A DNA stretch of 64,000 nucleotides from Utricularia gibba (lineage: Eukaryota > Streptophyta > Magnoliopsida > Lamiales > Lentibulariaceae), in contig CM007991.1 of NCBI GenBank assembly GCA_002189035.1, positions 868,001 through 932,000 of the forward strand. Reading direction: 5' to 3'. Shown here piece by piece: positions 1 through 8,031 of this stretch (position 1 is its first letter; every line of letters begins with the position of its first letter). The notes under the pieces are model-generated. The model did no database searches, was not told the DNA's origin, and saw nothing but the letters and a program-made list of their open reading frames with translations. A program made the position numbers and the translations under genes.

Positions 1-397
1 AGGTAAGCCATAAGGGTTTCCGTAAATTCAATTTTCCGTACTTCACACAAATACTGCACTCCGTTTGGATCAAGTAATAGAAAAAAAACTAATCCTCCTC
101 TAAATAGATTACGTAATAATCACGGCGCATCAATAATTAATTATTCTGATTATTTTGCGCTAAAAACCTTTAGTCAGTCAGAAATCGCTAGTTGCATGTG
201 TTATCAACTAAACTAAAAAATAATAATATTATGTTTTTTTTAATGGGATCCTTTTCGAGAAATCATTAATGAGTTTTTAATAATATTCACTGTCATTTGC
301 AGAGGAATTTCAGATTCCCATGCATGTCTCGTGGACGCATGCTTTTCCTCGTAAATCTCTAGTTTCTAGTTGTTACTAAATTTTGACATTTTTGCAG

Positions 398-1283
<886 letters not shown>

Positions 1284-2861
1284 AAGAACGAAACAAATCC
1301 CATGGTAAAAATAAAACAATTAAAATTGAACTTGCATAAAATCCTTCCTTCCCTACTTCAAGCCAAAGAAAATGGGCATCAACACAAGAAAGCACTCTTT
1401 TACCCTTTTGGCAAGGATAGATGGATTTTGTTCTTGGGCAATATCTCTATTTAAAATAATGATGGGATGTATTTTATTCCCCTATTTGTGTCTAGTACAT
1501 GTTTGCAGTTGGCATTTGAGAGTTGTATCATTTCGTACAGCAATGAAAAACCGGCATGACAAAAAAAAAGCAAAGGAGAAACCATCGAAACAAGAGAGGC
1601 GTGTTGCTCTTGTATGTTGTCTCTGTGGTGTGCTGGTAATATGATATGACGCAGAAACAGCACAGCAGAGCATCCAGCTAGTTGAAGATGATGAGGAGCC
1701 CCACATGGGCAGCTGCAAAGCAATGCCCACCACCAACCCCTGGATCCTTGTGATTGATTGCACCCTCGCCTAATGAGGGTTGACGGGCTGCAACGATACA
1801 CCTTTCCTTTTGGAATCAAAATAAGCAGCGGTTTCCTACTGGGATGCCATCACTGAAGCCGGCGCAGCTGGAGGAGAGTCGATCGGAACTCCGTCCAGCC
1901 AATGTAGCCGCCGCCCCCCTCCATTCTACTTGTACGATAACCTTCTGAATGTCCCTGGGCTTCAAGCACCAGCGACGAAATAGGATGGAATCCGTGCTCA
2001 AGTTGAATGCATGGTGCGCTTAGAGACAGTACCGTCTTCTGGTAATAAGTACTGCGCCTTGCCAACAACCATGCCTATTCAATAAGCTGTAATCCATTTG
2101 AAATGGGAACCGACGGTTCCTAGATTCCAGATTCCATATTTTGCAACTGGTCGGTTGGTTTCAATGCTGACTAAAAAAGTATGAAAAATCTGCGCAAACT
2201 GGCGATTCACGTTTCCAAATTTTAAGGAACTGAGTCAAGAAGCTCACTGGGTTCTGATTCGGAATCGAAAACCCGACAATCCAATACGATTCCGGTTCAA
2301 ACCTGTTTAAACTGTTTATGTTACATGGTGGATTGGACCAGATGCGACACCAAGGGCATTTGTGTAATGTTACAAAGAACCATCCAGCGGCCCATTAGCT
2401 ACCTGTTGGCCCACAAACGATGCACTCTTCAAAGCCCATAATCAGTCCAGGATATCTGATTCATTTGTATAATTAATTGAATCGAATTTCATAATTTTCA
2501 TTTTTTTAAAAAATAATTATTATTTAAATATGTGAAATTTAAAATTCACAAGCTTGACGTAAATTTGCAAATGCTCATGTAAGAATACGAGCTGTGTGAA
2601 TCAGGTAATCAACCTTCGATGTAAAAATGTTTGGTGTAAAGCTGCCTTATTTTGTTAGAATAACAAAATTGTTGTTTATTTACAATTAACGCATCGTTGG
2701 TGAGATCGTTAAGGCGAAAAGAGTAGTCTTTCTACAGGTAGGTGTACAGATGAACAGCGTCGGATGAGCACGGGGTTTTATCCAGCTGGTTATTCAACTT
2801 TCTATTGATCGGTTAGAATTAGGAAGCGGGTGTGTCCTTTTTTGAGAAATTAGAACCAGCA
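1284..2861. other. Intergenic spacer, GPAT 3' flank and PAS1 upstream region
   Basis: No coding signal is supported. The left part is the GPAT 3' flank. The centre (about 1640-2100) is of average composition with only short unlinked ORFs, and 2480-2700 is AT-rich. The last 150 bp should hold the PAS1 promoter and leader, but I see no clear TATA box. Confidence 0.6.
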
Positions 2862-5800
2862 ATGGCCGTGCTTGAAGATTCCGATGAGCAATATGCACCC
2901 CAGAAGAATAAGCCGCCTTCGGAGTATGAGAAAAGGTACCCCTTTCCGATGGCTGGTAAGTGCCTGAATTAAGAAGGTGTTTCGATTGATTTGTTTTGGA
3001 ATTCTTTTACAGGAGAAAGAAGATTGTGCCGGGTGGGTTGATGAAGGCCGTGATTAGGCCTGGAAAGGGTGACAAGAGTCCTACTGATGGTGATCAGGTA
3101 TTTGGGTAGTGAAAGAAAATCGTTTCAATGTTGTTATATTGCCGGGTTGTTATAATGCTTTGGGTCTGAAGGCAAATGATTATGGGGCGTGTCTAATTTC
3201 TGAAGGTTATATATAACTATACAGTCAGAACACTGGATGGTGTGGTTGTTGAGTCAAACCGAGCTGAACTCGGAGGTTTGTTTTTATCTTTCTCTGTCAC
3301 ATTGTGATGGGTTAATGCTAAACTAGGGTAATATTGTGTGTGATTGAATAGGAAATGGCATCCCAAAAAGGGATCTTTTTGGCAAAAGCAAGATGATTTT
3401 GGGATTGATGGAAGGCATCCCTACAATGTTGCTTGGTGAAGTTGCAATGGTAACTTATTTAGCAGAGTTATGTCATATTGAACAGAAACACGATTCATTT
3501 ATGTGCGCAATATTATTTTTGGCATTAATGTTATCATCATGTAGTTCAAGGTGAAACCTGAGATGCATTATGGGGAAGAAGACTGCCCTGTGTTTGCGGC
3601 ACAAGGTTTTCCCAAGGATGATGTACTTCATTTTGAAATTGAACTGATTGATTTCTCCAAAGTCAAGGCAAGAATGTCATAATTTTTTTGACCAACTTGC
3701 ACAGTGACTGCTCCTTATAATAATCATTATTTTCTAAGACATCTTCAATTTCGATTATAATCAGCGGAAATGACTGCTGACAGTGTTTTTGATATGAGCT
3801 TGTTCTTTTTAAGGGCCCTTTTTGCTCTGCTGTTTAACATGTATGCTACCTTCTGTACTTCCAGGTTATTACTGAAGATTTAGGCGTTGTAAAGAAGGTA
3901 ATATGTAAGATTTATTTTGTTCGAAGTGTTTCTGTTGTATGGGATGTAGTGTCTGTGAATTCTGGAAGTTATTAAAGGGAGAAGAAGAAATAGAATAGGA
4001 CTGCTGATTTAATCTGAGTCAGTGTTCTTCTTTTGATTCTGTTTGTGTGTGAGCTTGTGGCCTTGCAAATACATTTTACACTCACTCTTTATCTACTTGT
4101 ATTTTCTCAAACAGGTAACAGAAGAAGGACAAGGCTGGGAACAACCAAGGGAACCATATGAAATAAAAATTTGGTAGGTTACTAGATTTGCTTTCTCATT
4201 ACATTTGCACTTTTTGTAAGATGTTCCAGTTGAAGGCCTCAAGTATGAGATTCTTGTTTTCCTGAACCGTAATTCACTTTAAAGTAATTTTTTATAGGAT
4301 ATCGGGGAAGACTTGGGATGGTAAAGTTGTTTTTTCTCATACTACGGGGGAGCCATTTTTCTTTACTTTTGGAAAGTCTGAGGTGGGTAGTTCAATCCTC
4401 CATGTTATTCTATTTTCTGTATTGTTTAGTATGAAGTTCGGTTGGATTTTGTGTATGTAAGCACTTGGCACCTAATGCTTCTGGATTAACTGCGTTTTAG
4501 GTTTTAATCTGACAGGTTCCAAAAGGTCTAGAGATGGGAATTGGAACCATGCCAAAGGGCGAGAAGGCAGTCATATATGTCACAAGGGAGTACTTAACCG
4601 AGTGTTCTTTGATTCCCTCGTTGGAAGGTTATTCTGAAATCCAATTTGAAGTGGAGCTGATCCACTTTATCCAGGTAAATTTGTTATTCTCGTCATTGAG
4701 AGCTTGGCTATATTAAGGAAGTATTTGATCTGAAAGCTTAGAGCACAATAATCATATTTTGTACCTAATGTGATTTGAGTTGGAAATGCCTTTCGATTGT
4801 TTATATTCCTGTATACTTTATAGATCGTGGCTTATCACCATGACTTAAGTTATTTTGATAGTGTATGTATAGGTCCGTGATGTGCTTGGAGATGGACGCT
4901 TGATTAAACGGCGATTACGCAATGGAAGAGGTTTTTTACAATCTGTTCTCTTTAAATGACGACTCTAAATTTTCTTGCATTTTGTAATATGTAATTGCTC
5001 TTTTCTCAGATAAGTGCCATGTCTCTATTTTTAGATGTATTATTTGTTCATGTTCTTGCTGTTTATTCCACCGCAATCTATGTGCGTAATTCTTAATATT
5101 TGTGCTTTTTTTCCCATCTCCAAATAAATAGGCGAGTTTCCTATGGATTGCCCGCTCCAAGACAGTCTCCTGCGTGCTCACTACAAGGGAATGCTTCTTA
5201 ATGAAGAGAAAACTATTTTTTATGATACGCAGGTTCACAACAATGGGCAGCCATTGGAGTTCAGATCAGGTGAAGGCGCTGTAAGTAGTTTCATCCTCTT
5301 TCAATTTACTGAATTATGCTCCTTACTGTTTTTTTAAGTGAAGTACTCTCTTTTTACTTTTTTCTGTGGTGGTTGATGTCAGGTTCCGCAAGGTTTTGAA
5401 ATGTGCATCAGACTGATGTTGCCTGGAGAGATAGCCCTTGTTACATGCCCACCAGAATACGCTTATGACAAATTTCAAGGGTGCTTATAATCATATTTTT
5501 CATCTTAGATACTGAGTACTGTTGTTCATGCTACATTTACTTTGCCTTCTTCTGTATGCTCGCAGGCCTTCTGAAGTTCCTCAGGGCGCTTATGTTCAGT
5601 GGGAAATCGAGCTTCTTGATTATGAGAAGCAGAAGGTATGGATAAAAGGAAGAGGCATGCCATAAGTTCTTTCTGATATCTTTGTGCTGGATAAATTCAG
5701 TTGTCCTAGATTACGGTCCATGCACTGGAATGTTGTATGTGTGTGTCATTTGTCTGGGTGGTTAATTGGGTGAATTTCCAGTTGAATGGCCTTTTTAGGA

Positions 5801-7367
5801 CTGCTTATACATTATTCTTTTTCATATCACTTGTCTAGAAATTCTTTTTTGTGTGTCCATTTCTTGTTAGAAAGGCATATCTTGCAGCTTATTGTATTTT
5901 TTTTTTTTTTGTTGAAATCTATGCAAAAGGACTGGACTGGCTTTAATTTCAGAGAGATAATGGAGGATGTTGAGAAGATCAAGGCCACGGTACACATCAT
6001 ACCTTATCTGGTTAAATGATGGAAGATGTTTCAGTTTACAAAAAATCACAGTAAATTTGTCGTTTACTGCGTTTGTTTCAGGGGAACAGGTTATTCAAAG
6101 AAGGCAAATATGATCTTGCAAAGGCGAAATATGAACATGTACTGTGCTGCCTAATTTCAATTGCATCTGGTGCCAATAGCAACATTTGCTGATCTAATAT
6201 TCCGCTATTGGAATTCTGAGGACGATTTCTGTGATTTCACTAAAGAAACTTGTTCTTCCTTGTGCAGATCCTTAGGGAATTCAATCATGTTAACCCTCAA
6301 GATGATGATGAAGGAAAAGAGTTTGCAGATATGAGAGTATGTCTTATACAGAAATTGGCATATCATTGTAGTTTACTTCGTTGAAATTGATTCAAGCTCC
6401 TGTTCAAACATTGTTGAAGAACTTGATCAACCTGAACGTTGCTGCCTGCTGGCTGAAAATGGATGAATACAGAAAATCGATTGAAACTTGTAATAAGGTA
6501 GTCAAGTTTCAAACTTTTTATTATCCGGATGGTGTGTCCTTGTTTCTTCATGGTGCCGCATCTGAAATTGTACATGAAAGTATAGAAACATTGGATGCTG
6601 TATGGTAAACTTGCACAAACAAGGTGATCTGCCCAGGCTTCGGTTCATTGGAGCTGTGTGAGGAATGAGCTGAGGCGTATGTCAAAGCTGCATTCATCTA
6701 ATTTGTTGGCTCTTGTGTGAAGGTTCTGGGAACGAACCCGGCTCATGTGAAAGCTCTTTACAGACGTGGAATGGCGTTTCTGGCTGCAGGGGATTTTGAT
6801 GAAGCCAGAGCAGATTTTAAACAGGTGAGCTTTTCCTTCCTTTTTGGTCATCTAGTTGTTGATTGTGATTGGATGTTCTCGTTTGCAGATGATAATATTC
6901 GATAAATCATCGGAAGCATCAGCGAAGGCAGCTCTCCTGAAAGTTAAACAGGAAGAACAGGTTAGATTACAGGGACCTCTAGTCAAGCCTATCATTGTTC
7001 CTAGTCCCTTCATATACCTGCTTTCCTGGCGTAGATCAGCGTAGATGGTTGGTTCTTTTGATCCTGTATCTTCGTTCTGCTAGTCAATGGAAATTCATGC
7101 GTATCCGCATGTGCACAGGAGACCAAGAGAAGAGCTCGCCAGCAGTTCAAGGGGCTGTTTGACAAGAAACCGGGTGAAATCTCCGAGACTGGTGCAAGTG
7201 ACGAGGCCGCAGCCACAGACGAGCATGTTGATGCCGAGGAGGAGCAGTTGCTGGAGAGGGCCACAGTGCCGCCGCGGACGCCGCACTCAATCTTATGGTC
7301 CAAAATATGGCCTTCTGCTAAGCAACTCTTCAACAATCTTGGTCTGGACAGATGCGCCATTTTGTGA
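2862..7367 (+). CDS. PAS1: PASTICCINO1-type multidomain FKBP immunophilin (20 exons, 615 aa)
   Basis: Peptidyl-prolyl isomerase-like immunophilin. In Arabidopsis PAS1 acts in cell division, differentiation and very-long-chain fatty acid elongation at the ER. Exons: 2862-2935, 3013-3097, 3206-3275, 3352-3449, 3545-3667, 3865-3897, 4115-4173, 4298-4382, 4516-4674, 4873-4930, 5132-5280, 5383-5480, 5566-5635, 5930-5989, 6082-6138, 6268-6336, 6420-6497, 6723-6824, 6889-6960, 7119-7367. All phases join without a break. The protein has three FKBP-like units (about residues 40-150, 165-270, 285-390; e.g. PLEFRSGEGAVPQGFEM) and then TPR repeats from about residue 405 (GNRLFKEGKYDLAKAKYEH; KALYRRGMAFLAAGDFDEA). 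A basic stretch (ETKRRARQQFKGLFDKKPGE) and an acidic tail follow. Length is close to Arabidopsis (about 635 aa). Intron 5 has a GC donor. The protein ends RCAIL, a CaaX-like box, and I see no obvious C-terminal membrane span. Confidence 0.96.
3668..3864 (+). other. GC-AG intron in PAS1
   Basis: Exon 5 ends AAG and the intron begins GCAAGA, matching the usual GC-donor context (AG|GCAAG). It ends CCAG before GTTATTACT. This junction gives FSKVK|VITEDLGVVKK, which aligns residue for residue in length with the Arabidopsis PAS1 family sequence as I remember it. The nearby GT (AAA|GTCAAG) would drop two residues and is a worse donor. Confidence 0.8.
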
Positions 7368-7580: not shown

Positions 7581-8031
7581 ATGGCGGCGATTGCTAACAA
7601 GGTGGCGGCTGCGGTACTCCTCGTAGTGGCGATGGGGTGTCTAGTGGCGGAGTCGGCCGTCGACTGCGGCCTAGTGACCCAGGAGCTGAGCCCCTGCGTC
7701 ACCGCGGCTATATCCGGATCCAAACCCGACCCGACATGCTGCACTGGCATCAGGGATCTCTACTACAAACGAGCGAAACAAACCGCCGACCGTCAAACGA
7801 TCTGCAAGTGCATCAAAGCGTACGCCGGATACGCCACCCCCCCGTCGTCACCAACATCGGCCGTCTCCTAGCCGCCTGCAAAGTCTCCCTTCCTTACAAG
7901 ATCTCACCTCAGCTGGATTGCTCCACGTACGCTCCACACAACCCTAATTTTTTCCTACTATTGTTATTTAGGCGATATTTGGAAAATCTTAATTTTCTAA
8001 AATCGTACGACCTAATTTTAGGGTTCGTTGA
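7581..8031 (+). CDS. Type-1 non-specific lipid transfer protein, one frameshift
   Basis: Small secreted protein that binds lipids in a hydrophobic cavity in the apoplast. Exon 1 is 7581-7926 and exon 2 is only 10 nt, 8022-8031 (intron 7927-8021). The junction gives DCST|VR and stop, the usual place for the intron in type-1 LTP genes. A signal peptide covers about residues 1-26. The mature part shows the eight-cysteine pattern: VDCG, LSPCV, CC, CKC, AACKVS and DCST, with the conserved PYKIS. The C run at 7837-7843 (7 C) puts the reading out of frame after YAGYATPP. Eight C restore VVTNIGRLLAACK and give 118 aa, the standard family length. Without the correction the ORF stops after 96 aa and loses cysteines 7 and 8. 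The start is the only ATG after the TATA box with a signal peptide. Confidence 0.92.

Follow-up and report, generated by a model that had tools for sequence, protein, structure and literature searches.

A C-A-I-L ending on PAS1/FKBP72 of Utricularia gibba, a plausible prenylation box behind a predicted Trp-rich amphipathic helix

Near the start of the window (by which we mean the whole 64,000-nucleotide stretch of Utricularia gibba DNA analysed here, contig CM007991.1, positions 868,001 to 932,000) lies a gene at 2862..7367 on the + strand, which we spliced by hand into 20 exons and 19 introns and which encodes a protein of 615 aa. Its coding sequence is join(2862..2935,3013..3097,3206..3275,3352..3449,3545..3667,3865..3897,4115..4173,4298..4382,4516..4674,4873..4930,5132..5280,5383..5480,5566..5635,5930..5989,6082..6138,6268..6336,6420..6497,6723..6824,6889..6960,7119..7367) on the + strand. 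The reading frame is open across 20/20 exons, with 0 internal stops and 0 frame breaks, and all introns are of the GT-AG type except one GC-AG (intron 5, with the donor GC in AAG/GCAAGA at window 3667-3668). The protein has three FKBP domains followed by TPRs: among the Pfam families, FKBP_C matched in 3 stretches (5.4e-47) and TPR_1 at 3.5e-10, with TPR_2 matched as well. A search of the genome (100.1 Mb, 516 contigs) recovered one full-length copy, the other FKBP-TPR loci reaching 41% at most. The TPR segments resemble those of AtPAS1, and the gene is closest to AtPAS1, not to ROF or TWD1. Nineteen introns are the typical count in FKBP72 genes (PMC6156878). The three FKBP domains and TPRs, the single full copy and the FKBP72-type intron count therefore identify this gene as PAS1/FKBP72; its CaaX-like ending is real.

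Two other genes flank it on the same strand. A GPAT-like acyltransferase gene (window 390-1284, +) has its conserved protein spread over three frames, with breaks at a CCG repeat (~640-665) and at a CCCC run near 1095; these look like assembly indels at homopolymers, or else like a decaying gene. About 215 bases 3' of the PAS1 stop, an nsLTP-like gene (window 7582-7918, +) has one frame break, at a C run near 7840.

The last exon of PAS1 (7119..7367, +) encodes residues 534-615, which comprise the end of a TPR helix, an acidic linker, an amphipathic segment and a CaaX-like box. By direct translation the interval 7350-7367 (+), AGATGCGCCATTTTGTGA, reads AGA TGC GCC ATT TTG TGA, that is, R-C-A-I-L-stop, and begins one codon (Arg) upstream of the box. 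The box itself, C-A-I-L (residues 612-615), occupies 7353..7364 (+), with the Cys codon (C612) at 7353-7355 and the Leu codon at 7362-7364 (both +), and the TGA stop follows immediately 3' at 7365..7367 (+). The first-pass annotation had read the protein as ending in C-A-I-L directly before the stop, and this reading holds in the frame of the spliced 20-exon gene. CAIL has the features of a CaaX substrate, namely Cys at -4, a hydrophobic a2, Leu at X and a free C-terminus. With assumed plant amino-acid frequencies, a C-x-[FILMV]-L C-terminus has a chance probability of p ~5e-4, which corresponds to ~13 proteins in a set of 28,000 and, for one match among 15 genes, to 0.7%; these figures are a composition estimate and not a proteome-wide CaaX count. 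Because endings of this kind are expected by chance at such a rate, the motif by itself is moderate evidence, suggestive but not proof. In Arabidopsis, strict CaaX criteria are satisfied by >700 proteins, of which few have been confirmed (PMC13415981).

An amphipathic segment had also been noted ahead of CAIL, and both the hydrophobic moment and a predicted helix bear it out. AlphaFold2, run on the last-exon peptide as a single sequence, places a helix at peptide residues 55-73, which are residues 588-606 of the protein (7281..7337, +), the Trp-rich and amphipathic PHSILWSKIWPSAKQLFNN; the mean pLDDT of the peptide is low overall (63) and reaches ~80 for peptide residues 61-70. The hydrophobic moment of LWSKIWPSAKQLFNNLGL is 0.48, and the best 18-residue windows within residues 590-610, which combine a high mean hydrophobicity with a charge of +2, rank 6-8 of 598 in PAS1 by this measure, while 14% of shuffled versions of the 19-mer 593-611 have a moment as large as its own. 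No transmembrane segment was found in the tail, where no 19-residue stretch of the last 60 residues exceeds a hydropathy of 0.27, and no hidden transmembrane exon appeared in three frames just 3' of the gene. PAS1 thus has no hydrophobic span of the kind that tail-anchored membrane proteins carry in their last ~50 residues. A search of solved structures gave FKBP/TPR relatives only, none of them covering the PAS1 tail among the matches listed.

A way to judge how widely such an ending is shared is to compare it with Arabidopsis PAS1/FKBP72 (AT3G54010) and rice OsFKBP72, which resemble Utricularia PAS1 in having three FKBP domains, TPRs and a 20-exon gene. For Arabidopsis we used a provisional sequence, which we take to have 635 residues and to end in ...WSEKAWPFLKNVMLQIGIQLGVVLIGILIFQFVSAKFT, with no Cys; it was checked for length and partly for sequence, is not a database record, and is 67% identical to the Utricularia gibba protein. 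The three published TPR segments (PMC2939883) are all present in it, at a constant offset of 90. The published lengths of Arabidopsis PAS1 are 635/545 aa, and in the short form TPR3 begins at 393 (PMC2939883), which leaves 153 residues from the start of TPR3 to the end vs 132 in Utricularia gibba, a difference of +21. When the tails are aligned on their common W..K.WP motif, the Arabidopsis WSEKAWPFLKNVMLQIGIQLGVVLIGILIFQFVSAKFT end has a 19-residue hydropathy of 2.46. In this provisional sequence, then, the Arabidopsis tail is longer, hydrophobic and without Cys, whereas that of Utricularia ends in CAIL and has no hydrophobic span. Arabidopsis PAS1 probably lacks the CAIL box and, because its tail, 21 residues longer, is hydrophobic in that sequence and has no Cys, the box is probably not conserved across land plants but varies between lineages. 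Orthologues lacking the Cys or extending past it had been named in the first-pass annotation as what would speak against its proposal, and on this one indirect look conservation probably fails. The rice protein is described as resembling it in the C-terminal area while lacking the calmodulin site predicted there (PMC3012604), and for this reason too the PAS1 tail can be said to vary. What may nevertheless be conserved at this place is a tail that seeks the membrane, though the box differs. No PAS1 orthologues were found in the viral and prokaryote contig collections (protein query, and alignment with the provisional Arabidopsis sequence), as expected for a plant gene.

The greater length of Arabidopsis PAS1 could also mean that a one-base error in the assembly, or an unannotated exon, conceals a longer and different C-terminus in Utricularia. 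The TTTT run at 7360-7363 is the sole homopolymer of >2 bases from the Cys to the stop, and base errors are plausible in this region because in both neighbours, the GPAT-like and the nsLTP-like gene, the frame is broken by single bases at C-rich runs. However, altering the run to 3 or 5 T produces a 64- or 36-residue tail (counted from the Cys), neither of which has a hydrophobic span, unlike the provisional Arabidopsis tail; moreover, PAS1 is open throughout its exons, and such an error would be unlikely to create a canonical C-a-a-L-stop by accident. We consider an error of this kind very improbable, but the neighbouring frame breaks make RNA confirmation of ATTTTGTGA, the end of the PAS1 gene, worthwhile.

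Within the same genome, the FKBP-TPR paralogue loci (L031, L032 reverse and L039 reverse) include a TWD1-like gene, and the ends compared were those of two ROF-type proteins and the TWD1-like one, a third ROF-type gene (C1) being left out. The last residues of the two ROF-type proteins are SIDSKA and SVDSKA (MS[IV]DSKA), with no CaaX. The TWD1/FKBP42 paralogue (C414) is an FKBP-TPR co-chaperone like PAS1 and, again like it, has a variable linker followed by a C-terminal segment that is amphipathic and rich in Trp. This segment, WLHLVWQWLLSLFYRIFKLHREKAD, lies at a position matching the PAS1 tail; unlike in PAS1, it is longer and more basic and has no Cys box. Judging from these translated ends, PAS1 alone has a CaaX box among the paralogues read, and it shares its Trp-rich amphipathic end with TWD1.

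The enzymatic side of the question has been addressed for CAIL itself. In an assay of 32 CaaX boxes with recombinant Arabidopsis PFT and PGGT1, using as reporter GFP with the rice CaM61 basic domain, CAIL was geranylgeranylated by PGGT1 and farnesylated more efficiently by PFT (PMC3017772). PGGT1 requires Leu at the end and a hydrophobic residue at a2 and is indifferent to a1; PFT also takes Leu and is 30-100 times more active, and from the in vitro rates a CAIL protein is expected to be more farnesylated than geranylgeranylated, although geranylgeranyl is the usual modification of CaaL proteins in planta (PMC3017772). As positive controls we used nine ROP GTPase genes of this genome that end in CSIL or CTIL (C[S/T]IL). 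Type-I ROPs and other geranylgeranylated plant CaaL proteins share with PAS1 the Leu-ending box, and the ROPs of this genome differ from it only at the permissive a1; unlike PAS1, they have a small GTPase fold and a strong polybasic stretch ahead of the Cys. In the 15 residues before the Cys there are 6-11 basic residues (K/R) in the nine ROPs, and 2, plus 1 acidic, in PAS1. Efficient modification by plant GGTase-I is reportedly linked to a proximal polybasic domain, which the PAS1 tail does not have. With only 2 basic residues in 15, the tail is a doubtful substrate for efficient geranylgeranylation, and farnesylation is no less likely. The first-pass annotation had named C-a-a-L as a geranylgeranylation signal in other proteins; what stands of this is that CAIL works in vitro as a CaaX box for plant enzymes, while the weak basic context and the more efficient farnesylation of CAIL by PFT in vitro lead us to drop "geranylgeranylated" as a specific claim. 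We infer that PAS1 of Utricularia gibba is plausibly prenylated, the chances being about even.

The same weak basic context, together with the ~13 chance cases per proteome, suits another reading, somewhat unlikely in our view, in which the box is accidental and unused: PAS1 would not be prenylated to an important extent, and the Trp-rich amphipathic helix alone would bind the membrane or a partner, much as in TWD1. The TWD1 tail has no Cys box, and AtFKBP42 has a membrane anchor (PMC3012604). Set against this, an exposed C-terminus on a cytosolic protein, with hydrophobic a2 and Leu at X, fits the measured preferences of both enzymes.

PAS1, a co-chaperone involved in growth control, is reported to act as scaffold for the elongase complex at the ER (PMC3621670, PMC5008698, PMC5266714), in agreement with the link to ER fatty-acid elongase drawn in the first-pass annotation. 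Its further proposal, that lipid anchoring could explain membrane association without a transmembrane span, is in part upheld: there is no transmembrane segment, and an amphipathic helix and a CaaX box, the latter for a putative lipid, are present. The reading that we prefer, with middling confidence, is that the PAS1 C-terminus would be a two-part membrane-attachment tail, made of the Trp-rich amphipathic helix 588-606 and a prenylated C612 in CAIL. Cytosolic FTase and/or GGTase-I would add farnesyl or geranylgeranyl to C612, an ER-resident CaaX protease and ICMT may then trim and methylate the end, and lipid and helix would hold this cytosolic FKBP-TPR co-chaperone at the cytosolic ER face beside the elongase. 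The tail would sit where TWD1 has its Trp-rich anchor and Arabidopsis PAS1 probably a hydrophobic tail and, given this shared position, tethering to the membrane may persist with anchors of different kinds. A more tentative extension, which we would not count as probable, is that, from one plant lineage to another, orthologous PAS1 proteins are kept on the ER by C-terminal anchors of different kinds: Utricularia would have a prenylated CaaX and Arabidopsis a tail anchor of the hydrophobic type, and TWD1 would use an amphipathic, in-plane one at the corresponding position.

A precedent for the proposed PAS1 tail is found in Hsp40 J2/J3, which differ from it in their unrelated fold and in their box, of the farnesylation type and not CaaL. 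They are prenylated (farnesylated) co-chaperones acting at the plant ER membrane, and the farnesyl of plant J3 may work via a specific effector (PMC13415981). In Arabidopsis, the PAS1 C-terminus is tied to, and needed for, the binding of NAC factors and translocation to the nucleus (PMC3012604), roles that would fit awkwardly with a permanent lipid anchor. Both observations lend something to the view, which we regard as improbable, that CAIL is prenylated for protein contact (an Hsp90/NAC partner or a prenyl-binding carrier) or for regulated cytosol-nucleus traffic and not for stable ER anchoring. Yet no partner is known for the PAS1 tail, and the amphipathic helix would suit membrane contact at least equally. 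A literature search on PAS1 with prenylation, tail peptides or tail anchoring found no statement on the matter. Should the two-part tail be correct, its prenyl group would be a direct handle on the route by which PAS1, which lacks a signal peptide, gets to the ER elongase and also into the nucleus, and would tie the output of the mevalonate pathway to the synthesis of very-long-chain fatty acids; should the tail of Arabidopsis be of another kind, one anchor type would have been replaced by another in an essential developmental protein.

The enzymes for such a modification are present in the genome. Exons of prenyltransferase beta subunits were found in four places: the exon at C402 has solved GGTase-I beta as its best match and, from reading the exons, C255 was assigned to FTase beta and C451 (L048, intact-looking) to RabGGTase beta. 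Alpha-subunit repeats, ICMT and a STE24-type protease are all in the genome as well. At L051 (G000:C304:1546500-1553000) there is a fragmentary second RabGGTase beta-like copy, the exons of which contain stops and which is probably a pseudogene.
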